Shown piece by piece: positions 1,661 through 57,176 of a DNA stretch of 64,000 nt. The notes under the pieces are model-generated. The model saw only the letters and a list, made by a program, of their open reading frames with translations. It had not been told where the DNA came from and did no database searches. Each line of letters begins with the position of its first letter. The stretch's first letter is position 1. The translations under genes and the position numbers were made by a program. The stretch lies in the NCBI GenBank assembly GCA_943331005.2, contig CALQJX020000013.1, positions 49,978-113,977 on the forward strand, read 5' to 3'. Source of the stretch: Bordetella parapertussis. GTDB lineage: Bacteria > Bacteroidota > Bacteroidia > Chitinophagales > Chitinophagaceae.

Positions 1661-2066
1661 GCTACAATGCCGGGTTATCGCCTGTATCTATGAGATATTG
1701 GAGGAAAGTCCGGACAGCATAGAGCAGCGCACTACCTAACGGGTAGGCCTTCAGTAAAACGGGGGACAGACAGTGCCACAGAAAATAACCGCCGGTCGTG
1801 GTTGCAGTAGATGCGGTTTTCGTATTTGTTGCAGCTACGGCAGGTAAGGGTGAAAACGTAGTGTAAGAGACTACGGTGTGTTGCGGCAACACAACACAGG
1901 GGTAAACCTTGCGTGCTGAAATGCCAAATAAGCATGCGCTTGAGGATGGCTCGTCCGATGCATGTGGGTTGGCAGCGAGAGGCAATATGTGAGTATTGTC
2001 CCAGATAAATGATAGCCCATTTCCTGCAAGGGAGAGGACAGGATCCGGCTTACAGGCATTGTAGTT
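1661..2066 (+). ncRNA. rnpB: RNase P RNA, bacterial class A
   Basis: The catalytic RNA of RNase P, which matures tRNA 5' ends. Conserved blocks appear in order: GAGGAAAGTCCGGACA near 1700, GACAGTGCCACAGAAAATAA near 1768, GGTAAGGGTGAAA near 1842, AGAGACTACGG near 1865, GGTAAACC near 1911, and AGGACAGGATCCGGCTTACA near 2035-2054. The ends are set by a perfect 10-bp P1 helix, CTACAATGCC at 1662-1671 pairing with GGCATTGTAG at 2055-2064. A T-rich tract at 2065-2077 follows immediately and probably serves as the terminator. Confidence 0.97.
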
Positions 2067-2123
2067 TTTCTTTTTTTGATAATTGCCCTATCTTACCCCG
2101 TAGGTAGCCCTTGGTGAAAGCAT

Positions 2124-18710: not shown

Positions 18711-20015
18711 TCACTTTGCGGTGAGCAGCTTATTCTCCAGTTCCAACACCTGAGTCTCGTAGACTTTCACATTGAATTCGGCGGCATAGAGCCTGATGAG
18801 TGACTGTACAAAGGCGTTCTCTGCTTCTCTCGATTCCAGCGTAGTGCCTGCGCCCACACGAAAACGAGCCAGTTGCACATCCAGATTTTCGCGGGCAAAT
18901 TTCATGTCTTCATTTGCAAGGTTCAGCGATGCTACTGCTAAAGAATAGTTGCGCCATGCAGTACGATACTGGCGACCAATTATAGTGTTTTGCCTTTCGT
19001 ATTGTAACTCTTCGCGCATAGATTGCAGTGAAGCTACCTTCGTCTGTCGACGAATATTGCCTCCCTGGAAAACAGGAACACTCAGGTTCACTGTGCCATT
19101 AGCACCATAGTTGCGGGAGAAAAGTGCAAATCCTGTAGCACTGGTACTGCGGTTGTATACATATCCGCCATTTATGGTAAGGGTAGGCAGTGCATATGTT
19201 TTGGCAATGTCCGCATTGATCTTTGCGATCTTAGCATTGTATTTATAGGCCGATAATGAAAGATTCAATTCCGGTAGTTGATCTTTATCTGTCCTTTGCA
19301 GGGTAGTGTTCAGTGGCAACGTTTCATCTACTTTATACAATACATCTTCATTTATTCCCATCAACACACTCATAGAGTCGCAGGCCTGAGCAAATGTTGC
19401 CATATAGTTCAGTGAGTCTGCTTTGCGTGCGTTATAGTCCACTCTCGCCTGCAGGTAATCCACTTTGGCTCCGGCACCTGTCTTGTATTTCATTTCTGTA
19501 AGGTCCATACGTGCTTTAGCAAGGTGCAGCGCAGTGTCTACAGCAATGAGTTGTTTTTGTTGCAGGGCCACCTGTGCATACATCTGTATAGTACGGGATA
19601 CCATAGTTTGCATCTGTATGCGCAATTGCAGCTGGCTTAATGCTTCCACCTCATTGAGCTGTTTCTTTACCAGAAACATCCTTCCGCCATCAAAAAGGGT
19701 CCAGCTGGCCGTTATTGCAGGGTTTATGTTGGTATTCACTGCATTCGGGTTGTTCTGTTGTGTACCATTGGCAAGATCACTTTTTACGTTGCTTCTGCTT
19801 TCGGTAGCCGCTATTCCTGCATTGATATTGGGCAGAAAACCGGCATTGCCATAAGTGTTGTTGGCTTCAGCCTGCTGTATGGTTACATTGGCTATACTTA
19901 TATCATAGTTCTTCTTTAATGTTCTGGTTATTGCATCCTGTAGTGTTAGCCTTTCCTGAGCATTGCATAAAGTAGCAGCAGCAAGTGTTAGAAAAGACAG
20001 AATATACTTATTCAT
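18711..20015 (-). CDS. TolC-family outer-membrane efflux protein
   Basis: A 434-residue outer-membrane channel subunit. Signal peptide 1-19 (ends LCNAQ), then two OEP repeats, each starting with long helices: LTLQDAITRTLKKNYDISIANVTIQQAEANN in repeat 1, and a second repeat ending LDVQLARFRVGAGTTLESREAENAFVQS. The conserved YKTGAGAKVDYLQARVDYN segment is also TolC-like. Trimeric TolC proteins connect RND, ABC or MFS pumps to the outside. No pump or membrane-fusion gene is adjacent, so its partner must be encoded elsewhere. An 83-nt gap precedes the next gene downstream. Confidence 0.92.
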   Translation of the reverse strand: MNKYILSFLTLAAATLCNAQERLTLQDAITRTLKKNYDISIANVTIQQAEANNTYGNAGFLPNINAGIAATESRSNVKSDLANGTQQNNPNAVNTNINPAITASWTLFDGGRMFLVKKQLNEVEALSQLQLRIQMQTMVSRTIQMYAQVALQQKQLIAVDTALHLAKARMDLTEMKYKTGAGAKVDYLQARVDYNARKADSLNYMATFAQACDSMSVLMGINEDVLYKVDETLPLNTTLQRTDKDQLPELNLSLSAYKYNAKIAKINADIAKTYALPTLTINGGYVYNRSTSATGFALFSRNYGANGTVNLSVPVFQGGNIRRQTKVASLQSMREELQYERQNTIIGRQYRTAWRNYSLAVASLNLANEDMKFARENLDVQLARFRVGAGTTLESREAENAFVQSLIRLYAAEFNVKVYETQVLELENKLLTAK

Positions 20016-20191
20016 TTTTGTGATCGTTTGTGTAAAATGAGCTTGTCTGCACTATAGTGACAAGCCTTAAAGCGGCCTGATAAAACGCTTGATTTTGCGT
20101 GATGAACAGACTTGTCAAAAGTCCCAATTATACCGCATATTATCAAATGGCATATTGTGGTAATTGGTTTTAATGTGGTTTTATTAACAGT

Positions 20192-20232
20192 TCTATAAAA
20201 AGAGAAGATCGCACAGTTCGTGCGATCTTCTC
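20192..20232 (-). terminator. Rho-independent terminator of the giant SBBP adhesin gene
   Basis: A perfect 13-bp stem (20202-20214 with 20220-20232), loop of 5 nt, followed on the minus strand by TTTTTATAG. It lies 22 nt beyond the ancestral stop codon at 20255, which is where this transcript should end if the full sorting domain were translated. Confidence 0.88.
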
Positions 20233-20254
20233 AAAAAATGAACTACTTATCCGT

Positions 20255-20323
20255 TTATCTGAGCAATGTAATATTACCCGACTTAGTTATCAATTTTCCC
20301 TTGTCTGTTACGGCTTCAATAGT
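20255..20323 (-). pseudogene. Untranslated remnant of the type B sorting domain
   Basis: In-frame continuation of the adhesin gene beyond its TAA at 20326-20324. It encodes 22 further residues, T-I-E-A-V-T-D-K-G-K, then L-I-T-K-S-G-N-I-T-L-L-R, before TAA at 20257-20255. The ending GNITLLR is identical to the true C-terminus of the second adhesin in this window (ending at 56145). Alignment of the two tails without gaps places the premature TAA opposite a tyrosine. The frame is otherwise intact, so one substitution (TAT or TAC to TAA) explains it. Confidence 0.85.
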
Positions 20324-23300
20324 TTACACATATACACCCATTGGTTGAGCAGCGCCCTTATATGTCCCATCCCAGCCGGCATCTATATCTGCAGATTCGT
20401 ACACCAGATTTCCCCACCTGTTGAAAATGCGGAATGATTTAAGCGAAACCAGACCGCGGCGCATAGGAAATATTTTGTTGTTGGCGCCACTGCCCGGCGT
20501 AAATGCATTTGGTACTTCTACAAGCGCATTATCATTCAGGGTAATAGTGATGGAGTCTTTTGCTATACAACCTTCTTCGGTTGTGGCCATAAGTATGTAT
20601 TTGGTACTAACCTCTGGTGTTGCCAACGGATTGGCAATATACTTTCCACTCAGTCCGCCAGATGGGGTCCAGGAGAACTTCGTACCGTTCGTTTGAGGAT
20701 TGATCTGATAGGATTCTCCTGAGAATATGGTCACTGAATCCTCCAGATGTACCACAGCGGCAGGATGCACTTTCAGTAACATGCTCAGCGTATCTCTGCA
20801 GCCATCGCTGTTGGTGGCTATTACAGAATATACCTGTGTAGTAATAGGTTTTGCCCATGGTCTTGCAGCATTTGGGTTGTCCAGATACATTGCAGGAGAC
20901 CATTTGTAGCCAACACCACCTGTTGCCACAAGCTGCACAGAATCATTTGGGCAGAGACTGGTATCTGCAGTTATACCTGCAAAGTCGCCGGGATGTGCTA
21001 CTATCATTACAGAGTCTTTACCCGAACAGCCTGCAGGGGTGGTTACTGTAAGTACAAGGCTTATTGTAGTATCTCCTTTGAACACTACAGAAGGTAGTGT
21101 AGGGAAGTCTATCTGCGTTGCAGGACTCCAGCTGTATGAATAATGAGTGTACCATGGCGGGTCTACATAACTATGTATTTTCAGAGAGTCATACTGACAT
21201 ACATGTCTGGTAGTGCCGAGGAAAGGATCCGGATTTGGTTGTACATCTATATGGAAAGAATCTATTCCATCCGAACAACCTTCCAGATGAGCTATGAGGT
21301 AATAAGTAGCAGATGTATCAGTAGTGATCATCGGGTTGATGATATAAGGAGTGGCTATGCCGGTAGTAGGTACCCAATGAAAAACAATATCGGGGTGACC
21401 GGTAGCATATACCTGTACAGATTGACCTTTACAAATAGCAGTATCCGGATTGTAAAGCGTAAAGGTGTCATATTTGATCTCCACATGTATGGTATCGGCA
21501 CCACTGCAGCCATTTTCTGAAACCTGCAGCCAATAGGTACCGGTTGCAGTTGCTGTAAATGTAGGACCTACACTGGCATTGTGCCACAGATATACAGGTG
21601 TGGTGTACATTACAGAAGACATTAGTAGAATTGGTGCGCCTGTACAGTTCACCGTATCCGGCCCAAGGTCTACGATTGGTGGCGGGCCGACTACAATGTC
21701 TACAGAATCCTTACCTACACAGCCATCACTGTTGGTTACCGTAAGTACATAGTGACCTGATGAAGATACCTCTATTGTATCGCCGGTGCTTCCAGTACTC
21801 CATATTAGAGTGCTTCCAGCAGGTTGTGTAGTAGATAAAACATAAGTGTTCCCGATACAGAAGCCGGTATCATTTCCCAGATTCACTATTGGGGATGGGT
21901 AGGTGCTGACCTTAAAGGTATCTGAAACTATAGAACAATTGCTCTGTGCTGTAACCCAGTAGGTTCCGGCTGTTGCTGCGCTTATTGTTGTGGGAGAGGT
22001 GCTTCCGGTACTCCATAAGTAGGTAGTATGACCCGAAGGAGCACTAAGGTTGATTGGCAGAGTAGCCGCACAAACAGTATCGTTAGTTACTGAAGTGGTA
22101 GTGTCAAAATTATTTACCAGCACATAAACACTATCGGTAGTGCTGCATATCCTTTGGAAGAGTATGTCATCAATGGCAAAGTCGTTGCCGGAAGCAGTTG
22201 TAAGCGCATCATAGATACAGATACTGGCTGTTGTGCTCGGGCCGCTGTTCCATGTAGTTGCAAAGTTCATCCATGTACCCGGGGCTGCTGTAACAGTAGT
22301 TGGTGTGCCCTGCAGTATTCCATTGATCCTGAATTGAAGTACAGGCACATCCGGTCCTGTCGTTACAGAAGAGCAGTTGGCAAACCATGCAGAGAAGTTA
22401 TAGTCGGTATTCGGTGTTACACTTATGGTCTGGCACCATACATCTACAGGAGATGGGCCACCGTTAATGATCATCATGTTCCCGGTGCCGGTAGTATGAT
22501 CGCCCATGGTAGTGAAGCCGGTGTGCACACCAAATGGATTGGTGTATACTGAATAACGCCCTTCGAGCAACACAGAGCTTGGTGGTGGAGAATAGGTATA
22601 TGAACTTGAAAAACCCGAATTGCCACCGGAAAAATCTCCGTTCATAACCAGATTGCTCTCATTAAGCGAACGGAGTGTAAGGAAATAATATCCGGATGTG
22701 GCTGCTGTGACCACAGGTGTAAGAATGGTGGTAGAGGAAAGTCCGATTGCCGGAGACCATGCATAACTCAGTACAGAATCAGTACCTCCCATTACAGCAG
22801 GTATGGTCATGGTGTCGCCTATGCATAGTTTTATGGTGTCTGGCAGGGTAAGGGTATTGCAGAACGTACCAAGACATGCAGGGTCGTATTTTCCGAAATA
22901 GCCATCTATTACGCCTGTTGTTGTGAGCGGAATAGATGATGCAGATGGGTCAAAATCTACAGATGTACCAATATATTGACCGGTAGCATAGATATAGCCT
23001 GCCGGATCGTGATGGATGCCAAACCCGCCATCATCGCCGGTAGCGCCTACCTTGAAGCTACATTGATAGTTGCCACCAAGATCGTACTTGGTTACAAAAA
23101 TATCGTTGCTGCCTGCACTTGTCATGTTGCCTCCAGCAGCAGCAGGCGCAAAATCAACAGTACCCGAAAACTGTCCTGTACAATATATATAGCCTCCGGC
23201 AACATCTATACAATAGCCAATATCGTGACCGGTACTACCCATTACTTTTCCCCACAGATAGTTTCCGGCATTATCGTATTTGGCCATTATTATGTCTGTG

Positions 23301-24349
23301 TTGCCGCCGCCACCCGGTGTAGATACTGTAGTAGTAAGCGGAGTTGCAGGGTCAAATACTATAGTGGCACTGCTTGTTTCTCCCAATACGTAAATATTGT
23401 CAGAAGCATCTAGAGAAAGACTCATAAACTCATCAATATCTGTTCCTCCGGTTCCGCTTATTTTTTTTGCGAAAATGAGATTCGCATCAACATCATATTT
23501 TGCAACATACAGATCATAAGTGCCTGATGAGGTAAGGAAGATAGGGGTGCCCCATGGGCAGAAATTGGATAGTCCCTGAAAGAAACCGGCAACATATATA
23601 AAACCTCCACTTACTTTCAGTGATCTGGGAAAACAATCTACACTGGAAATTCCCGGCAGACCATAGTTATGTCCCCAAATTACAGTGCCTGCTGCATCAT
23701 ATTTTATCAGGTAAGCTGTGCCATCAGTAGCACTTGTAAGGGTTATTGTAGGAGAAACAACCATTGATGTATTAAAAACGCCACCCACATATACATTGCC
23801 TGCAGGGTCTGTATCTAAAGAAAGAGCAATATCGTAAACAGTAGGACCACCCAATGCTTTCGCCCACTGGAAAGTTCCTGCTGCAGAGTATTTCGCTACA
23901 AAACCATCGCCATAATAGGTTAGGGTAGTACCTCCTGCAAATGGTAAAGTAGTGGTTCCTCCTCCCGGATCAAAATCTATGCCTGCTGTCTGGAAATATC
24001 CTGATATGATAACATTGTTACTTGCATCTATGGTCATGTACCAGGCTGCATCATACCTGTTGCCTCCTATGCCAAATCCCCAGAGAAAGCCTCCGGAAGA
24101 ATTATAGCATGCCAGATATATATCGTCGAGTCCATTGCTTGTTACATTATAAACCCCCGGACCCGGATCAAGATCCATTGTACCTGTAAACTTACCTGCT
24201 ACACATACATTGCCATTTGGTGCCACTTTTATAGTTCTTCCTTCATCATTGGTAGTGCTGCCAAGGCTATTTACCCATAAACCGGTCTGTGCAAATGAAG
24301 AAAATTGTGATAGGAAACTAAGGAGTATTATAGAGTATATTTTCTTCAT
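20324..24349 (-). CDS. Giant SBBP-repeat adhesin with Ig-like repeats and truncated T9SS type B sorting domain
   Basis: A 1341-residue exported protein. Signal peptide MKKIYSIILLSFLSQFSSFAQ; I start at the ATG at 24349 rather than 24388 because the signal begins there. About residues 25-500 are SBBP-type beta-propeller repeats (DAAGTVIWGHNYG, DNAGNYLWGKVMGSTG, each followed by IYVLGET-like strands). A jelly-roll-like section (about 575-750, MNGDFSGGNSGFSSS) follows, then six or more Ig-like repeats of the CSGADTIHVEI kind. The last 90 residues are a gliding-motility-associated type B domain (VEVPNAFTPGSGANNKIFP, FRIFNRWGNLVYES, GWDGTYKG) cut off after MGVYV by an in-frame TAA. If the stop is real, secretion through T9SS should be impaired. 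No PorP/SprF gene is adjacent. Confidence 0.9.
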   Translation of the reverse strand: MKKIYSIILLSFLSQFSSFAQTGLWVNSLGSTTNDEGRTIKVAPNGNVCVAGKFTGTMDLDPGPGVYNVTSNGLDDIYLACYNSSGGFLWGFGIGGNRYDAAWYMTIDASNNVIISGYFQTAGIDFDPGGGTTTLPFAGGTTLTYYGDGFVAKYSAAGTFQWAKALGGPTVYDIALSLDTDPAGNVYVGGVFNTSMVVSPTITLTSATDGTAYLIKYDAAGTVIWGHNYGLPGISSVDCFPRSLKVSGGFIYVAGFFQGLSNFCPWGTPIFLTSSGTYDLYVAKYDVDANLIFAKKISGTGGTDIDEFMSLSLDASDNIYVLGETSSATIVFDPATPLTTTVSTPGGGGNTDIIMAKYDNAGNYLWGKVMGSTGHDIGYCIDVAGGYIYCTGQFSGTVDFAPAAAGGNMTSAGSNDIFVTKYDLGGNYQCSFKVGATGDDGGFGIHHDPAGYIYATGQYIGTSVDFDPSASSIPLTTTGVIDGYFGKYDPACLGTFCNTLTLPDTIKLCIGDTMTIPAVMGGTDSVLSYAWSPAIGLSSTTILTPVVTAATSGYYFLTLRSLNESNLVMNGDFSGGNSGFSSSYTYSPPPSSVLLEGRYSVYTNPFGVHTGFTTMGDHTTGTGNMMIINGGPSPVDVWCQTISVTPNTDYNFSAWFANCSSVTTGPDVPVLQFRINGILQGTPTTVTAAPGTWMNFATTWNSGPSTTASICIYDALTTASGNDFAIDDILFQRICSTTDSVYVLVNNFDTTTSVTNDTVCAATLPINLSAPSGHTTYLWSTGSTSPTTISAATAGTYWVTAQSNCSIVSDTFKVSTYPSPIVNLGNDTGFCIGNTYVLSTTQPAGSTLIWSTGSTGDTIEVSSSGHYVLTVTNSDGCVGKDSVDIVVGPPPIVDLGPDTVNCTGAPILLMSSVMYTTPVYLWHNASVGPTFTATATGTYWLQVSENGCSGADTIHVEIKYDTFTLYNPDTAICKGQSVQVYATGHPDIVFHWVPTTGIATPYIINPMITTDTSATYYLIAHLEGCSDGIDSFHIDVQPNPDPFLGTTRHVCQYDSLKIHSYVDPPWYTHYSYSWSPATQIDFPTLPSVVFKGDTTISLVLTVTTPAGCSGKDSVMIVAHPGDFAGITADTSLCPNDSVQLVATGGVGYKWSPAMYLDNPNAARPWAKPITTQVYSVIATNSDGCRDTLSMLLKVHPAAVVHLEDSVTIFSGESYQINPQTNGTKFSWTPSGGLSGKYIANPLATPEVSTKYILMATTEEGCIAKDSITITLNDNALVEVPNAFTPGSGANNKIFPMRRGLVSLKSFRIFNRWGNLVYESADIDAGWDGTYKGAAQPMGVYV

Positions 24350-24681: not shown

Positions 24682-25785
24682 ATGAAAAAATTAGTACTTC
24701 CCCTCATCGCTGCAAGCACTTTGTTTGCAACTTCATGTTCAGAAAAATTTGAGGTAGCTGCACCCTACAAAGATATTACTGTGGTGTATGGTTTTCTGGA
24801 TATGGCTGATACTGCCCATTACATTCGTATACAGAAAGCATTTCTTGATGAGAACAAGAGTGCTGTGAATATGGCCAAAGAGGCTGATTCGAATTTCTAT
24901 TCCAACATTAACGTCAGAATAGAACGGTACAGCTCTACCGGAAATAATGTAATGATCGATTCGCTGCATCTTGATAAGGTAGATCTGACTCAGGAGGGGT
25001 ATCCAAAGCAGCCGGGCATTTTCTTTAATGCACCCAATTATGCCTACAAATTCAAGGCAGCACTAAACCCTGCTTATATCTATCGTCTTAAGATAGTGAA
25101 TCTCACTACAGGCAATGTTGATTCTGCAGATGCACCCGTTATCAATAATCAGCTTCCGGCTACCAGCTCAGGCCCGGGTTTTAAATTGGATCCGGTTGAT
25201 AATAATGACGTAAATACTGTGGGGATGTCTTTCTTCTCGGTATTGCCATACAGGTATTATACACTAAATGCAACTTACAATCCTATAACTAATTACTCTT
25301 TCAAAGGCGAAACTAACCCTGCAAAGGTGGCGCAGGCAGTAATAAGGTTCAATTGGAGTGATTCTGATTTTGTAAATAAAACCACAACCCCAAGGTATTA
25401 CGACTATGATGCCGGTTATGTGAGTCTTGCAAATTCTAATATTGAATACAAGATAGAAAACAAGAGTTTATACAATGCAATAAGTACTGGTATGGGCAAG
25501 GCTCCTGAAAATGTTATCAGGTTGCTGAACAGGTGCGATGTTACCATGTATCTGAGCACATCAGACTACAATAATTACAGGTTGGCAATGCTTTCTCAGG
25601 GTACTGGTCTTACTGCAAGCGAAATTGCACCGGTTTATACTAACATCAAAGGCAAAAACGTTTTGGGTCTGTTCACTTCAAAAGCAATGCGCACAGGCAA
25701 GATAACGATCACCTCTAAAACTGTTGATTCACTGATAGGAAGCCCTACACTGAGCCATGTGAAGATAAAGGGTACAGTATATTAG
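24682..25785 (+). CDS. Bacteroidota lipoprotein of unknown function (DUF4249-like)
   Basis: A 367-residue lipoprotein. The N-terminus MKKLVLPLIAASTLFATSC has a lipobox ATSC with the lipidated Cys at 19, followed by SEKFEVAAPYKD. The rest is beta-rich, including DITVVYGFLDMADTAHYIRIQKAFLDEN and AYIYRLKIVNLTTGNVDSADAPV. The style (outer-membrane lipoprotein, one extracellular-type beta domain near the N-terminus) resembles DUF4249 and similar families, but I am not sure of the exact family. It is a monocistronic unit with its own -7 element and a strong terminator. Confidence 0.75.
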   Translation: MKKLVLPLIAASTLFATSCSEKFEVAAPYKDITVVYGFLDMADTAHYIRIQKAFLDENKSAVNMAKEADSNFYSNINVRIERYSSTGNNVMIDSLHLDKVDLTQEGYPKQPGIFFNAPNYAYKFKAALNPAYIYRLKIVNLTTGNVDSADAPVINNQLPATSSGPGFKLDPVDNNDVNTVGMSFFSVLPYRYYTLNATYNPITNYSFKGETNPAKVAQAVIRFNWSDSDFVNKTTTPRYYDYDAGYVSLANSNIEYKIENKSLYNAISTGMGKAPENVIRLLNRCDVTMYLSTSDYNNYRLAMLSQGTGLTASEIAPVYTNIKGKNVLGLFTSKAMRTGKITITSKTVDSLIGSPTLSHVKIKGTVY

Positions 25786-48080: not shown

Positions 48081-48152
48081 GGCTTCGTAGTACAATGGAT
48101 AGTATAAGAGTTTCCGAAGCTCCAGATTCAGGTTCGATTCCTGACGAAGCCA
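48081..48152 (+). tRNA. tRNA-Arg (anticodon CCG)
   Basis: A 72-nt cloverleaf. Acceptor GGCTTCG/CGAAGCC, discriminator A at 48152, D stem GTAC/GTAT, T arm TCAGG/CCTGA with loop TTCGATT, and anticodon loop TTCCGAA with anticodon CCG at 48114-48116 (reads CGG). CCA is not encoded. The outermost anticodon-stem pair (27-43) is an A-C mismatch. The following 228 nt up to the hutU promoter hold nothing else I can support. Confidence 0.93.
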
Positions 48153-48380
48153 CAGCACAAATGCAAGCACCCGCTTGCATTTGTTGTTTACAGTTAGTAC
48201 TAAACATGTTGCAGGTTTTCATCTAAATTGAAATATGTTGTATTTGCTTTTTCAAATGTCTGTTTATATTAAATAGTAGCTAGTTGCATCATATACAATT
48301 TCATAGTGTTATTTATTGCGTATAATATCTTCAAAACCTATTGCATCATAAGTAATACATACCTGCAATGTGGTTGCAAT

Positions 48381-50160: not shown

Positions 50161-50183
50161 TCCGAATATCAATGTCATTGCTC

Positions 50184-51728
50184 ATGAAAAAGCTGTTAGC
50201 TCTGTTTATATCATTTCTGGCTGTTTCAAATACAGAAGCACAGATATCGCTGAAACATACACAAGCCATAACAGTAGCAACCGGGAAAGGCCTGCTCATG
50301 CGCCAGCCCGATGGAAAATTGCTTTATTTTACAGCAACTGAAGGTAGTTTTTATTCTGGCCGATTATTTGCCAACGGTGAAAATGACGATGCCTATAACG
50401 GCGCGCGAACTTCCAAACAAAAGCTCAATCATTTATATAGGTGTTGTACACAGTTTGTTACTACAGATAAGTGGGATCGTATACTAATTGCCGGCACTGC
50501 AGCCGCAGATTCTGCTGGTGTAGTTATGTCTACGCTGGTACGCTACACCAGAAATGGTGATCCTGATCCTGATTTTACACCGGTCATTCAGCAGTTCAGG
50601 GTAAGAGATACCTCGGAACTCGGTGGTGTTTTTTTGTTGAACGATGAAAAAATAATGACAGTAGGTTCATCCTGTAAAGAGGGTGTTTGGCAGTTGTTTC
50701 TATCCCGCTTGCAGTACAATGGTGAAAGCGATACTACTTTCAGTGCCAGTGGAGTTTTTATAGATAACAGCATTCCGGGTAGCAGCAGGGTAGGAGGAGC
50801 CATAAAGCAGACTGATGGGAAAATAATAGTTGTAGCGGGTAACGAAAATGGTGCAGAACGTAGTGTTGTTGTTTGCCGTTATTATCCCGATGGAACAAAG
50901 GATACCGCTTTCGGTATAGGTGGTAGTACGCTTATTGTACCGGGTTCAAAAGGTTACTTGCTGCCAAAGAAGGTGCAGCTCCAGTCCGATGGGAAGATAA
51001 TAATAGCTGGTATTTGTACAGGTGAAAACGGAGGAAACAACATCTTTTTGCTCAGACTCACTCAGTGGGGTGTTGCAGACACTTCATTCTCAGGTAAGCC
51101 TATGGTATTATCTAAGCCTTGTCACGAAAGTAGGGTAGACGACCTGCTCCTGTTAGCCGACGATAAGATCATACTTTCCGGTGCAGGTAATGCGGTAGGC
51201 GAACAACGTTTTGGTCGTGAGCTGTTATTGCGTTTTGCAGCAAACGGAACAGCAGATGCTACATATGGTTATGGTAATAATATAGGTGTAGGTAACTTAC
51301 TTGTCAACAAGGCTTTCACTACCGCTGCATACAATATAGCGCTGGCTGCCAATGAAGGCAAAATATATCGGTTCAGTGAAATGATCTCGGGTTATGAGAC
51401 AATATTATCTCTGACTACTTTCCTGCTCGATACCTCTTTGGGTGTAATAGATGTCCCAAACCGCAAGGTGCAAAGTAACATCTATCCAGTACCTGTACAC
51501 AACAGAATTTCCTTTTCGTTCGATCTTATTGATGATCAGACAGTTTCTACTCGGTTGCTCGATCTTTCAGGTAAAGTAGTATCGGTTATATCGGAAAATG
51601 TTGCTATGACCGAAGGTGAGAACACAGTTACCATACCTTTTCCTGCTACTGCCAGGCCAGGCAGATATTTTGCAGAGATCACTACTTCTCAGGGATATAA
51701 ACAGCTTATTGAGGTAACTAAGTTATAG
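50184..51728 (+). CDS. Delta-60-repeat secreted protein with T9SS type A sorting domain
   Basis: A 514-residue secreted protein. Signal peptide MKKLLALFISFLAVSNTEAQ; an ATG four codons upstream (50172) is also possible. The body has five or more delta-60-type repeats, each of the form (G)xxDTxF followed by GKIIIAG strands: GDPDPDFTP, GESDTTFSASG, GTKDTAFGIGGS, GVADTSFSG and GTADATYGYG. The last 80 residues are a type A sorting domain (NIYPVPVHNRISFSFDL, RLLDLSGKVVSV, RPGRYFAEITT). It is a likely surface beta-propeller-like protein of unknown ligand. Confidence 0.9.
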   Translation: MKKLLALFISFLAVSNTEAQISLKHTQAITVATGKGLLMRQPDGKLLYFTATEGSFYSGRLFANGENDDAYNGARTSKQKLNHLYRCCTQFVTTDKWDRILIAGTAAADSAGVVMSTLVRYTRNGDPDPDFTPVIQQFRVRDTSELGGVFLLNDEKIMTVGSSCKEGVWQLFLSRLQYNGESDTTFSASGVFIDNSIPGSSRVGGAIKQTDGKIIVVAGNENGAERSVVVCRYYPDGTKDTAFGIGGSTLIVPGSKGYLLPKKVQLQSDGKIIIAGICTGENGGNNIFLLRLTQWGVADTSFSGKPMVLSKPCHESRVDDLLLLADDKIILSGAGNAVGEQRFGRELLLRFAANGTADATYGYGNNIGVGNLLVNKAFTTAAYNIALAANEGKIYRFSEMISGYETILSLTTFLLDTSLGVIDVPNRKVQSNIYPVPVHNRISFSFDLIDDQTVSTRLLDLSGKVVSVISENVAMTEGENTVTIPFPATARPGRYFAEITTSQGYKQLIEVTKL

Positions 51729-52581: not shown

Positions 52582-55500
52582 ATGAAAAGGCATTATATAC
52601 TATTATATTGCTTGCTTTCCTGTATATCCTTCGCGGCATTTGCTCAGGCGCCGCCTACCGAGTTTATTGAAAACAAAGGTCAATGGGGCGATTGGGTAAG
52701 ATACAAAGCAAAAACAATAGCCGGAGAAATGTACCTCGAAAACGATGGTTTCAGGTATGTCCTCAGCGAGGCTTCTAACACAGAAAAGATCGATTCCTTT
52801 CATCATGGACTTATTACTGAAAAGCCAAAACTGAAGTTTCACGTCTATAAAATGACGCTGGAAGGTGCTAATGATGCAACAATAAAAGGGGTAAAACAAC
52901 AGACCAACTACTACAACTATATGTTGGGCAATGACCCTAAAAAATGGAAGGGTGGCATTCATCCGTACCTTGGGCTGGAATATCTCAACATTTATAACGG
53001 CATAGATATGCATGTCTCCTCAGAGGCTAGTGCATTGGTCTATGAATTTTTTGTGCAGCCTGGTGCAGATGCCAATAAGATCAAACTGAGATTTGATGGG
53101 GTAGATCGCATGTTCGTCAATATTAACGGCAATCTCGTTATCAAGACTTCTGTAGGTCAGGTAACCGAAATGAAGCCTTATGTTTATCAGTACATAAATG
53201 ATGAGAAGACCGAAGTGGCTTGTAACTATCATTTGGAGGGCAGTCTGCTCACTTTCGATATGCCCAATGGTTATGATCATTCCAAAATGCTCATTATAGA
53301 TCCGGTTACGCTTTGGGCTTCTTTTACAGGATCCACTGCAGATAACTGGGGCTTTACTGCCACCTACGATAATGCAGGTAACTTCTACATGGGAGGTATT
53401 GTCAATTGTCTGGCTATTGCCGGTGGTGGTGCATTCCCTGTTTCTCCAGGTGCCTATCAAACAGTATGGGGTGGTGGACAAGGTGCTGGTGCTGTGCAGT
53501 TTGGGTCAGATATCGCTATAATGAAGCTGAGCCCCGATGGTACTTCGCGCATCTATGCAACCTATATTGGAGGTGTGAATAATGAGCGTCCGCACAGTAT
53601 GATAGTGAACAACAATGGTGAACTTATTATCGCGGGTCGTACACTTTCACCCAATTATCCGGTTACAGCTGGTGCTTATCAGTCTGTAAAGAACAGCGGA
53701 TGGGATATTGTGGTTTCTAAACTCAATGCTGCAGGTTCTGCAATGGTTGCTTCTACATTCATAGGTGGTTCTGCAGATGATGGCGTGAACTTCGATTCTA
53801 CAGAACTAGGTTATGGTCATCTGAAATTCAACTATGGCGATGATGCACGTAGCGAAGTTCAAGTAGATAATCTGGGAAATATTTATGTAGCAGGCTGTAC
53901 CGAGTCTGCCAATTTCCCGGTTACTCCTACAGCAATTGCCAGTACCATCAGCGGTTTACAGGCAGGTGTGGTATTCAAATTGAATCCCGGTATGACCTCA
54001 TTACTCTGGAGTACTTATCTGGATGGAGTGGGAGATGATGCAGGATACGTTTTAGCTTTCAATCCATCACAATCTTCGGTATATGTGGCTGGTGGTACTA
54101 ACAGTGCCAATTTCCCGGTTCCTGCAGGTGGCTGGCAGCCAACCTATATGGGCGACTCTGCCGATGGTTACATCCTCAAGTTCAGGAACAGTCCTCCATA
54201 CAACCTCCAGAAAGGAACATTTGTAGGTACTGCAAATTACGATCAGGTATACGGTATTCAGGTCGATTACAGTGGTAATGTATATGTGATGGGTCAGTCA
54301 TTGGGTGGCACATTTCCTGTTACTGCCGGTGTATACACCAATCCAAGTTCTTCTCAGTTCATCATGAAGATGGATAGTAACCTTACTTCAGATCTTATTT
54401 CTACTGTTTATGGTTCCGGCGACCCTATTCACACCAACATTTCTCCTGTTGCATTTCTGGTAGATACCTGCGAGAATGTATATGTATCGGGTTGGGGTGG
54501 TAACATCATGGGTTTGGCAAGCCTTGCGCACACTGGTACTACTATAGGTATGCCTACCACACCTGATGGTCACTTAACTACTACTGATGGTTTCGATTTC
54601 TATTTTATTGTACTAGGTCCGGCCATGACCACATTGCGTTATGCAACTTTCTATGGCAGGGTAGCCTCTGGTAGCTTTGGCGAGCATGTGGATGGTGGTA
54701 CCAGCCGTTTCGATAAAAAAGGAATAGTATATCAGGGTATCTGCTCCAATTGTGGTGGTACAGCGGCACCTCCATTCCCTACCACAGCGGGTGTGTGGGC
54801 TACAACAATGCCCAGTCCCAACTGCAATCAGGCAGGACTCAAGATAGCTTTCAATATAGGTCCGGTAGATTGTAACATTACTGCAGGGCCAAGTACCAGT
54901 GGCTGTGCACCGCTTACCGTTAATTTCTTTAACTCTACCACCAACGGTCTTTCCTTCCTTTGGAATTTCGGAGATGGTTCAGCTCCTGTTACTTCTTTTG
55001 CCCCATCTCACACCTTTACTGCTGCAGGTACATTTACGGTCACACTTACTTCTACCAATTCCAATGCCTGTTTCAAAACAGATGATACTGCCTATCTGGT
55101 TATTAGTGTAGATACCAATAAACTTACTCCTGATTTTACTTATGTGGTCACAGATAGTTGCGATCCCTTCATTGTAACATTAACCAATACCTCTACTACA
55201 AATATCTCTACCGGTTCACCTACATACACATGGTATCTGGGAGATGCCACAACTTTTTCAGGCACTACACCTCCGGCACACAACTATGCAGATACCGGTA
55301 CCTATACTATTACGTTAGTAATGGCGCATCCTGATGCTTGTAAATCGCCTGATACAGTACAGAAACAAGTACATATTTACTACAAGCGGGTTTCCGGAAG
55401 TTTCCAGATACCAGATTCTATATGTATTGGCGCATCGGTGCAAACAACTGTAAATGCAGTCAATGCAACCGGTTATTTCTGGGATTTTGGCGATACAACA

Positions 55501-56145
55501 ACCTCCTCTCTGGCAAATCCTGTACATGTTTATACCAGCGTAGGTACTTTCAAAGTCCGTTTGATAGTAGTTAATCCTGAAGCTTGTAATGGTGCCGATA
55601 CATTTGAGAAGAGTATCAAAGTGCTTTCTGGTCCTATTGCAGATTTTATATTCATACCTGTGAAGCCGGAAGCAAATGTGCCTACCAAATTCACGAACAA
55701 GTCATATTTCGCTACCCGTTACAGCTGGGATTTTGGAGATGACTCCAAGAGTACAGAGACCAATCCTACACATCAGTACAATAAGACAGGGAATTACAAA
55801 GTATGTCTCACAGCCTATAACGAAAGTTCATGTCCTTCTATAGCTTGTAAAACAGTTCCTACAGAGGTTGTTCCATTGTTGGGTATACCTACGGGCTTTA
55901 GCCCCAATGGAGATGGACAAAATGATATACTCTATGTAAGAGGTGCTGCCATCAAGACCATGGATCTGAAGATATATAATCGTTGGGGACAATTGGTGTT
56001 CGAATCCAATAGTCAGGATATAGGCTGGGATGGCACATTCAATGGTCAGCCTCAACCGATAGAGGCATACGGATATGTTTTGAATGCTACATTTATTGAT
56101 GGAACTGCGAAGTTGCTGAAAGGAAATATCACACTGTTACGATGA
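52582..56145 (+). CDS. Giant SBBP/PKD adhesin with T9SS type B sorting domain
   Basis: A 1187-residue secreted protein. Signal peptide at 1-21 (ends AFAQ). The N-terminal ENKGQW domain (about 25-250, annotated as DUF7948 in recent databases, from memory) precedes SBBP beta-propeller repeats (about 255-760, e.g. DIAIMKLSPDGTSRIYATYIGG). Four PKD domains follow, each with a WxFGD-like turn: FLWNFGDGS, YTWYLGDAT, YFWDFGDTT, YSWDFGDDS. The C-terminus is a complete gliding-motility-associated type B sorting domain (LGIPTGFSPNGDGQNDILYV, KIYNRWGQLVFES, GWDGTFNG, ending GNITLLR). It overlaps the PorP/SprF gene by 4 nt (ATGA), so adhesin and exporter partner are translated together. Confidence 0.95.
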   Translation: MKRHYILLYCLLSCISFAAFAQAPPTEFIENKGQWGDWVRYKAKTIAGEMYLENDGFRYVLSEASNTEKIDSFHHGLITEKPKLKFHVYKMTLEGANDATIKGVKQQTNYYNYMLGNDPKKWKGGIHPYLGLEYLNIYNGIDMHVSSEASALVYEFFVQPGADANKIKLRFDGVDRMFVNINGNLVIKTSVGQVTEMKPYVYQYINDEKTEVACNYHLEGSLLTFDMPNGYDHSKMLIIDPVTLWASFTGSTADNWGFTATYDNAGNFYMGGIVNCLAIAGGGAFPVSPGAYQTVWGGGQGAGAVQFGSDIAIMKLSPDGTSRIYATYIGGVNNERPHSMIVNNNGELIIAGRTLSPNYPVTAGAYQSVKNSGWDIVVSKLNAAGSAMVASTFIGGSADDGVNFDSTELGYGHLKFNYGDDARSEVQVDNLGNIYVAGCTESANFPVTPTAIASTISGLQAGVVFKLNPGMTSLLWSTYLDGVGDDAGYVLAFNPSQSSVYVAGGTNSANFPVPAGGWQPTYMGDSADGYILKFRNSPPYNLQKGTFVGTANYDQVYGIQVDYSGNVYVMGQSLGGTFPVTAGVYTNPSSSQFIMKMDSNLTSDLISTVYGSGDPIHTNISPVAFLVDTCENVYVSGWGGNIMGLASLAHTGTTIGMPTTPDGHLTTTDGFDFYFIVLGPAMTTLRYATFYGRVASGSFGEHVDGGTSRFDKKGIVYQGICSNCGGTAAPPFPTTAGVWATTMPSPNCNQAGLKIAFNIGPVDCNITAGPSTSGCAPLTVNFFNSTTNGLSFLWNFGDGSAPVTSFAPSHTFTAAGTFTVTLTSTNSNACFKTDDTAYLVISVDTNKLTPDFTYVVTDSCDPFIVTLTNTSTTNISTGSPTYTWYLGDATTFSGTTPPAHNYADTGTYTITLVMAHPDACKSPDTVQKQVHIYYKRVSGSFQIPDSICIGASVQTTVNAVNATGYFWDFGDTTTSSLANPVHVYTSVGTFKVRLIVVNPEACNGADTFEKSIKVLSGPIADFIFIPVKPEANVPTKFTNKSYFATRYSWDFGDDSKSTETNPTHQYNKTGNYKVCLTAYNESSCPSIACKTVPTEVVPLLGIPTGFSPNGDGQNDILYVRGAAIKTMDLKIYNRWGQLVFESNSQDIGWDGTFNGQPQPIEAYGYVLNATFIDGTAKLLKGNITLLR

Positions 56146-57176
56146 GAAAAGGATTACTGACCGGTTTGTTATCTCTTATTATGTGCGGAGCAGCTTCTGC
56201 GCAGAGTATTCATCTGTCGCAATACTACAATGCACCCTCACTTATTAGTCCGGCAAATACCGGATTGATGCCAGATCATGACTACAGGCTCGGATTGAAT
56301 TACAGAAATCAATGGGCTTCCTTGCCGGTGCCATACAATACATTCTCAGGCTGGGGCGATCTGAAGATCGGTGGCAACAAAGACAACGACCACAACAACT
56401 GGCTGGGTATGGGGCTGGTGCTATACACCGATAAGGCAGGCGATGGTCAGCTGAAGCTGAACCAGTTTCAGGCTAGTATGGCTTATCACTTACAGATGAG
56501 TACTACCTTCCTGCTTTCTCTGGGTTTATCTGCAGCATCCATTAGTCGTAGTGTGAATTACGATCTGCTGACCTATGATGCGCAATGGGACGGATTTGCT
56601 TTCAATAGCGGATTACCTACCGGCGAAAAGAAAGGTATCATCCGGGCAGGATATTATACAGTTGGTGCAGGTATCAATTTTTCCTGGTTCCCCAATGAGA
56701 ACCTGTATGTGAAACTGGGTGGTGGTGCATTCAATATCAATAATCCCGTAGAGACCTTCTACTCTGGTGGTAAGAATACTGTAGCGCTTCGCCCCAGTGG
56801 TACCCTGGATATATTATTGCGGACAGGTGAGGTTTTGATACTTAATCCATCGTTATACTATACGCAGCAGAGAGGTGCACAGGAATTGGTGGCAGGTACA
56901 TTAGTTCGTACCATTCTCAGCTCCAGTGCAAAGGGCGGCACACCTGTAGAACTGATACTGGGTGGTTTTTATCGCATTGCCGATGCTGCTATTGGTGCTG
57001 CTGGTGTGCAGGTGGGGCCAGTACAATTCATGGCCAGCTATGATCTTACATTGTCTTCTTTAGCCCCCTACAACTCATCATATGGAGCTATGGAGTTTTC
57101 TCTTATTTATCAGGATAACTACGGCAAGAATAAACAAAATGCCCGCCGCAGCTATACCTGTCCAAGATTCAACTAA
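56142..57176 (+). CDS. PorP/SprF-family T9SS outer-membrane protein
   Basis: A 344-residue outer-membrane beta-barrel. Signal peptide at 1-20 (ends ASAQ). The family start IHLSQYYNAPSLISPANTGLM is typical of PorP/SprF, followed by YRLGLNYRNQWASLPVPYNTFSGWGDL and the C-terminal strand GAMEFSLIYQDNYGKNKQNARRSYTCPRF. SprF-type proteins are needed for secretion of specific partner proteins with type B sorting domains, such as SprB. The 4-nt overlap with the adhesin gene makes that adhesin its obvious client. Confidence 0.95.
   Translation: MRKGLLTGLLSLIMCGAASAQSIHLSQYYNAPSLISPANTGLMPDHDYRLGLNYRNQWASLPVPYNTFSGWGDLKIGGNKDNDHNNWLGMGLVLYTDKAGDGQLKLNQFQASMAYHLQMSTTFLLSLGLSAASISRSVNYDLLTYDAQWDGFAFNSGLPTGEKKGIIRAGYYTVGAGINFSWFPNENLYVKLGGGAFNINNPVETFYSGGKNTVALRPSGTLDILLRTGEVLILNPSLYYTQQRGAQELVAGTLVRTILSSSAKGGTPVELILGGFYRIADAAIGAAGVQVGPVQFMASYDLTLSSLAPYNSSYGAMEFSLIYQDNYGKNKQNARRSYTCPRFN

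Follow-up and report, generated by a model that had tools for sequence, protein, structure and literature searches.

Introduction

The closest described systems are the T9SS proteins with a type B C-terminal domain (CTD), for example SprB of Flavobacterium johnsoniae. As set out in excerpts of the primary report, the CTD of SprB holds five motifs in its last 100 residues, and a reporter fused to it is secreted only if every one of them is intact; those type B substrates that were tested also require a PorP/SprF shuttle (PMC12618676). A review, likewise in excerpt, gives a region of more than 200 residues as needed for type B domains, and the last 13 residues as needed for efficient secretion by type A domains (PMC10202324). 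Stop codons have also been described in this pathway: in the passages of the two reports drawn on here, they arise in gliding and T9SS genes of F. columnare exposed to phage (PMC9233685), and one isolate of F. psychrophilum carries such a stop in gldB (PMC8400371). Our literature search returned no paper that joins a T9SS C-terminal domain with stop codon readthrough, which does not imply absence from print.

A type B substrate gene together with a PorP/SprF gene forms the usual substrate-shuttle pair, a cognate PorP/SprF gene beside the substrate being common, not universal. Assembled contigs can carry single-base errors or a strain-mixture consensus. The gene considered here ends in the same C-terminal family as the T9SS type B proteins and scores above the Pfam cut-off even in truncated form; unlike them, its domain as read in the contig lacks the last 23 residues and falls under the TIGR04131 cut-off, while P0003, a protein found by searching the non-redundant protein set, has the full tail. 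The Flavobacterium cases share with it a stop codon in a Bacteroidota surface-secretion pathway, but in the excerpted accounts they concern machinery genes of isolates (PMC9233685, PMC8400371), whereas here a single substrate gene is affected and the stop is known from one contig only. What the locus would share with a contig that carries a single-base error or strain-mixture consensus is one isolated change in an otherwise clean region, with an intact near-identical record elsewhere.

Results

The window, by which we mean the whole 64,000-nucleotide stretch of DNA that was analysed, holds the following features of interest.

20324..24349, minus strand: the interrupted gene, 1341 codons plus TAA, with its ATG at 24349-24347, N-terminal repeats, and a C-terminal type B sorting domain cut short
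20258..20524, minus strand: 89-codon stretch of the type B sorting domain (PF13585, TIGR04131)
20326-20324, minus strand: in-frame TAA within the T9SS type B sorting domain, ending the 1341-codon frame
20258..20323, minus strand: 22 open codons past the stop, family-like to the last residue and identical to the end of P0003
20257-20255, minus strand: second TAA, at the position where P0003 ends
20202..20232, minus strand: terminator-like hairpin and T-run, from scan and fold (z -5.7)
52582..56145, plus strand: second type B protein, with a complete domain (TIGR04131 2-85 of 85), used for comparison
56142..57176, plus strand: PorP/SprF-like gene directly after the second type B protein

The sequence-only reading had described a frame of 1341 codons that stops inside a type B sorting domain, and the TAA is indeed there. 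PF13585 matches the truncated protein over profile positions 2-66 of 86 with 41.3 bits (cut-off 27), and TIGR04131 over positions 2-62 of 85 with 30.2 bits, under its cut-off of 35. The window allele has no complete C-terminal PF13585/TIGR04131 domain; P0003 has the tail intact. In the alignment of sorting domains, where conserved blocks are visible, the stop takes the place of a tyrosine that closes one such block, and the final block, GNxTLxR, is lost. We infer that these blocks correspond to the published SprB motifs, the last of them perhaps to motif E. Among solved structures, the best match to the sorting domain is a grappling hook protein of Aureispira (E 7e-7).

At its other end, the mechanically called frame begins at TTG 24388, 39 nt upstream of the ATG at which P0003 begins. 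The N-terminus resembles a Sec signal peptide when the translation is judged by eye, and the N-terminal repeats are partly like the SBBP beta-propeller family LipL53, whose model gives 93.8 bits in 3 stretches, far under its cut-off of 400. In the earlier label of "giant adhesin", "giant" is loose for an intact form of 1364 residues, and a role in adhesion can only be presumed, since the sorting domain alone reached a Pfam match.

Past the stop the frame stays open for 22 codons, which read TIEAVTDKGKLITKSGNITLLR, up to the second TAA. The terminator hairpin begins at 20232, 22 nt farther on, with a stem of 14 pairs in the scan and 13 in the fold (-24.8 kcal/mol, z -5.7) followed by TTTTT, so that translation and hairpin analysis bear out the arrangement first noticed from the sequence alone. 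This tail is genuinely coding, as opposed to a frame left open by chance, because the same 22 residues belong to the recorded protein P0003. Any recent nonsense mutation would leave an open, preserved tail of this kind.

P0003 has 1364 residues and 100% identity across the whole query: it matches the window protein residue for residue (1341 of 1341), continues with a tyrosine, and ends with the same 22 residues. At the protein level the two are one codon apart, as the single nonsense change at a tyrosine proposed beforehand requires. The single contig recorded for P0003 measures 30,742 nt, which is shorter than the window, so it is a different contig from the one read here; the identity of the two proteins indicates that an intact allele is known from what appears to be the same species. 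The neighbouring downstream efflux protein (18711-20015) occurs at 100% identity on 3 contigs, the longest of 125,677 nt, which fits the presence of several near-identical, perhaps near-clonal, contigs of the locus. These records suggest that an intact allele exists in the same population as the window allele or in a nearly clonal one. An old pseudogene was considered and rejected, the tail being open and free of further stops and the residues before and after the stop all equal to those of P0003.

The nearest relatives of the window are MAGs labelled Chitinophagaceae, Flavipsychrobacter and Taibaiella. One contig scan across genomes gave 77 loci, the best full-length match (74%) being L001, from a MAG labelled Chitinophagaceae; among the matches listed from 394 genomes of the family of L001, the best identity was 75%. 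P0003 and ten full-length orthologues (55-75% identity) all have the tyrosine, and so do all 28 of the sorting domains aligned, which come from at least 18 loci and the second type B protein of the window. Beyond the close orthologues it is not universal, P0076 and P0078 having phenylalanine, for instance.

Of the first 78 loci, 69 gave a match. With the 89-residue domain as query, none of 141 tblastn matches in 98 loci has the in-frame stop, and the window, as positive control, shows it; 15 of these matches break off ahead of residue 80 (of 89), the remaining 126 include 109 distinct ones, and some of loci L079-L098 repeat contigs of L001-L077. No stop appeared among the matches listed for PF13585 in 14 related genomes, nor among those listed for P0003 against the 394 genomes. 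In L001 the gene is kept between the same neighbours on both sides, and L003, whose contig begins inside the gene, keeps the downstream side. A search of viral contigs gave a single weak match, at 29% identity across a short stretch.

In the first protein search, 7998 candidates were scored and 1419 hits obtained, and the analysis covered the 120 listed; 117 of these 120 homologues have the normal tail when judged by a loose pattern. The ends of P0094 and P0116 differ from it. The third exception is P0037: at the protein level, the sorting domain of this homologue has an abnormal end (GVLLLLPEI) close to the position of the stop, through some other change. Separately, another MAG carries two tandem relatives of the interrupted gene (L002:4589-6754 and L002:8785-12750), and several other loci (e.g. 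L005, L017, L008 and L010) have two or more type B domains near one another.

When the 22 tail codons were compared with those of relatives, L001 differed by 10 amino-acid and 5 silent changes, L003 by 8 and 10, L004 by 5 and 11, and L002 by 5 and 14. This is a weak test, because silent changes are commoner in three of the four comparisons and the reverse holds against L001; most of the changes that separate the tail from its relatives are older than the stop.

We also looked at the state of the contig. Fifteen window ORFs in 10943-33922 that match L001 or L003 align across 94-100% of their length, and among these none but the interrupted gene was seen to be cut short. The contig is therefore not visibly error-ridden, which is still compatible with a single error. 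Asterisks in the L001 matches to two window ORFs were set aside: on our reading, one of the ORFs was called in the wrong frame (five stops), and the second case falls ahead of the true start. TAA is the stop of 30 of 49 ORFs, the interrupted gene included, in a set picked by hand from 85.

Both sorting domains of the window align end to end and without gaps to the same 89-residue query, and the stop falls opposite a tyrosine of the second protein, so that the earlier alignment holds, as does the complete domain claimed for 52582-56145. This second gene encodes a DUF7948-SBBP-PKD protein and is followed, with a 4-base overlap, by the PorP/SprF-like gene, the pair spanning 52582-57176 (+). No PorP/SprF gene was found among five scanned neighbours of the interrupted gene, which in this is like the "orphan" substrates of the excerpted SprB report (PMC12618676).

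Several other features were recorded in the window. A protein of 367 residues (24682-25785, plus strand) matches nothing in Pfam or PADLOC; it also stands beside the gene in L001 (73%), and in L004 (58%) it lies near a related shorter gene. A defence-gene scan of four window proteins gave no match. A DUF5122 beta-propeller protein (50172-51728, plus strand) has a weak type A-like tail (Por_Secre_tail, 22.5 bits, cut-off 27). A class A bacterial RNase P RNA of full model length lies at 1662-2068 (+), and the only tRNA of the window, tRNA-Arg (CCG), at 48081-48153 (+).

Discussion

The feature was correctly read and has an ordinary cause; it is no evidence for a new regulatory mechanism. Our leading explanation, to which we give about even chances, is that a conserved and otherwise intact gene for a T9SS type B surface protein has recently acquired a private nonsense point mutation, with the intact allele present in the same population. 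P0003 argues for this, agreeing at every one of the 1341 residues and continuing past the stop position with the same tail, as do the efflux neighbour, whose identical copies on 3 contigs fit near-clonal copies of the locus, the lack of a second lesion in the tail, and the other compared ORFs nearby, none of which was seen cut short. The need for all five SprB motifs in reporter secretion (PMC12618676, excerpt) and the stops in gliding and T9SS genes of phage-exposed F. columnare (PMC9233685, excerpt) lend it plausibility and precedent. Against this, a contig error fits the protein data equally well; nonsense is uncommon among random single changes, by our estimate about 1 in 20, whichever the cause; the placing of P0003 in the same population is drawn from its identity; and the tail-codon comparison is weak. 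If the change lies instead in the consensus of the contig, through a sequencing or assembly error, the gene of the organism is intact and the stop absent from cells, an explanation to which we give somewhat less than an even chance. It would account for the record, on another contig, of an intact protein that agrees at all the other residues compared, and for a position that is strongly conserved and free of stops in the relatives examined; what speaks against it is that the comparison of 15 neighbouring ORFs with L001 or L003 turned up no other obvious lesion. A real allele is slightly favoured over a consensus error, and with it the presence of the TAA change in cells. Of the four meanings that the sequence-only reading had offered, recent loss of secretion and assembly error are the two that survive.

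That the shortened domain works, the early stop being a tolerated and fixed length variant of the species, is very unlikely: PF13585 does still score above its cut-off (41.3 against 27 bits), and P0037, one of the 120 listed homologues, also ends abnormally in this region, but P0003 has the longer form in apparently the same species, the normal tail is found in 117 of the 120 by the loose pattern, and the last block was necessary in SprB if it equals motif E (PMC12618676, excerpt). Programmed readthrough of the TAA, which would give secreted and non-secreted forms from one mRNA, finds some encouragement in a tail that is open and in frame and in a terminator placed only past the second stop. 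It is unsupported, however, and we regard it as extremely improbable: the stop is not conserved, being present in none of the 141 tblastn matches of relatives, nor in the matches listed from the other searches, nor in P0003; the fold of the RNA beginning at the stop is only marginally better than that of shuffled sequences (z -1.6; 15 of 200 as good); TAA is the ordinary stop of 30 of the 49 picked ORFs; and a recent mutation would leave the same open tail. A dedicated switch, turning the secretion signal on and off by slippage, inversion or template-directed change, deserves equally little credence. Stop and intact states are both recorded for otherwise identical proteins, as such a switch would produce, but within the window, to which the search for a slippage tract, invertible repeat or template copy extended, 20271-20380 has no homopolymer of at least 5 and no short repeat of at least 3 units, 20201-20600 has no second copy, the site has no tandem array, and no inverted repeat was listed in 19900-20700 (minimum 14, in a scan that missed the terminator stem too). 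The phase-like variation suggested earlier is therefore unsupported as repeat-driven switching, while in the plain sense of two alleles in one population it agrees with P0003.

If the recent nonsense allele is real, one change at a tyrosine codon of the sorting domain would end translation 23 residues early and remove the end of the domain with its GNxTLxR block. The truncated protein would still cross the inner membrane by means of its signal peptide, would not be recognised by the PorP/SprF shuttle, and would remain in the periplasm. Were the allele real, then, the protein would probably reach the periplasm without being secreted. The cytoplasm, where the sequence-only reading would have had the non-secreted form sought, is not where it is expected, because the N-terminus looks like a Sec signal peptide.

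Should the stop prove to be an error, the case would illustrate how one contig base can mimic regulated secretion, and how near-identical database proteins expose it. A real allele, by contrast, would mean that a T9SS secretion signal has been lost naturally within a population, and it might serve as a marker of selection acting on surface proteins. A further, unlikely, possibility is that secretion is polymorphic in one natural population, the nonsense sorting-domain allele being maintained beside the intact one, for example if the secreted protein serves as a phage receptor; cells would then gain by withholding the secreted protein while the body of the gene stays intact.
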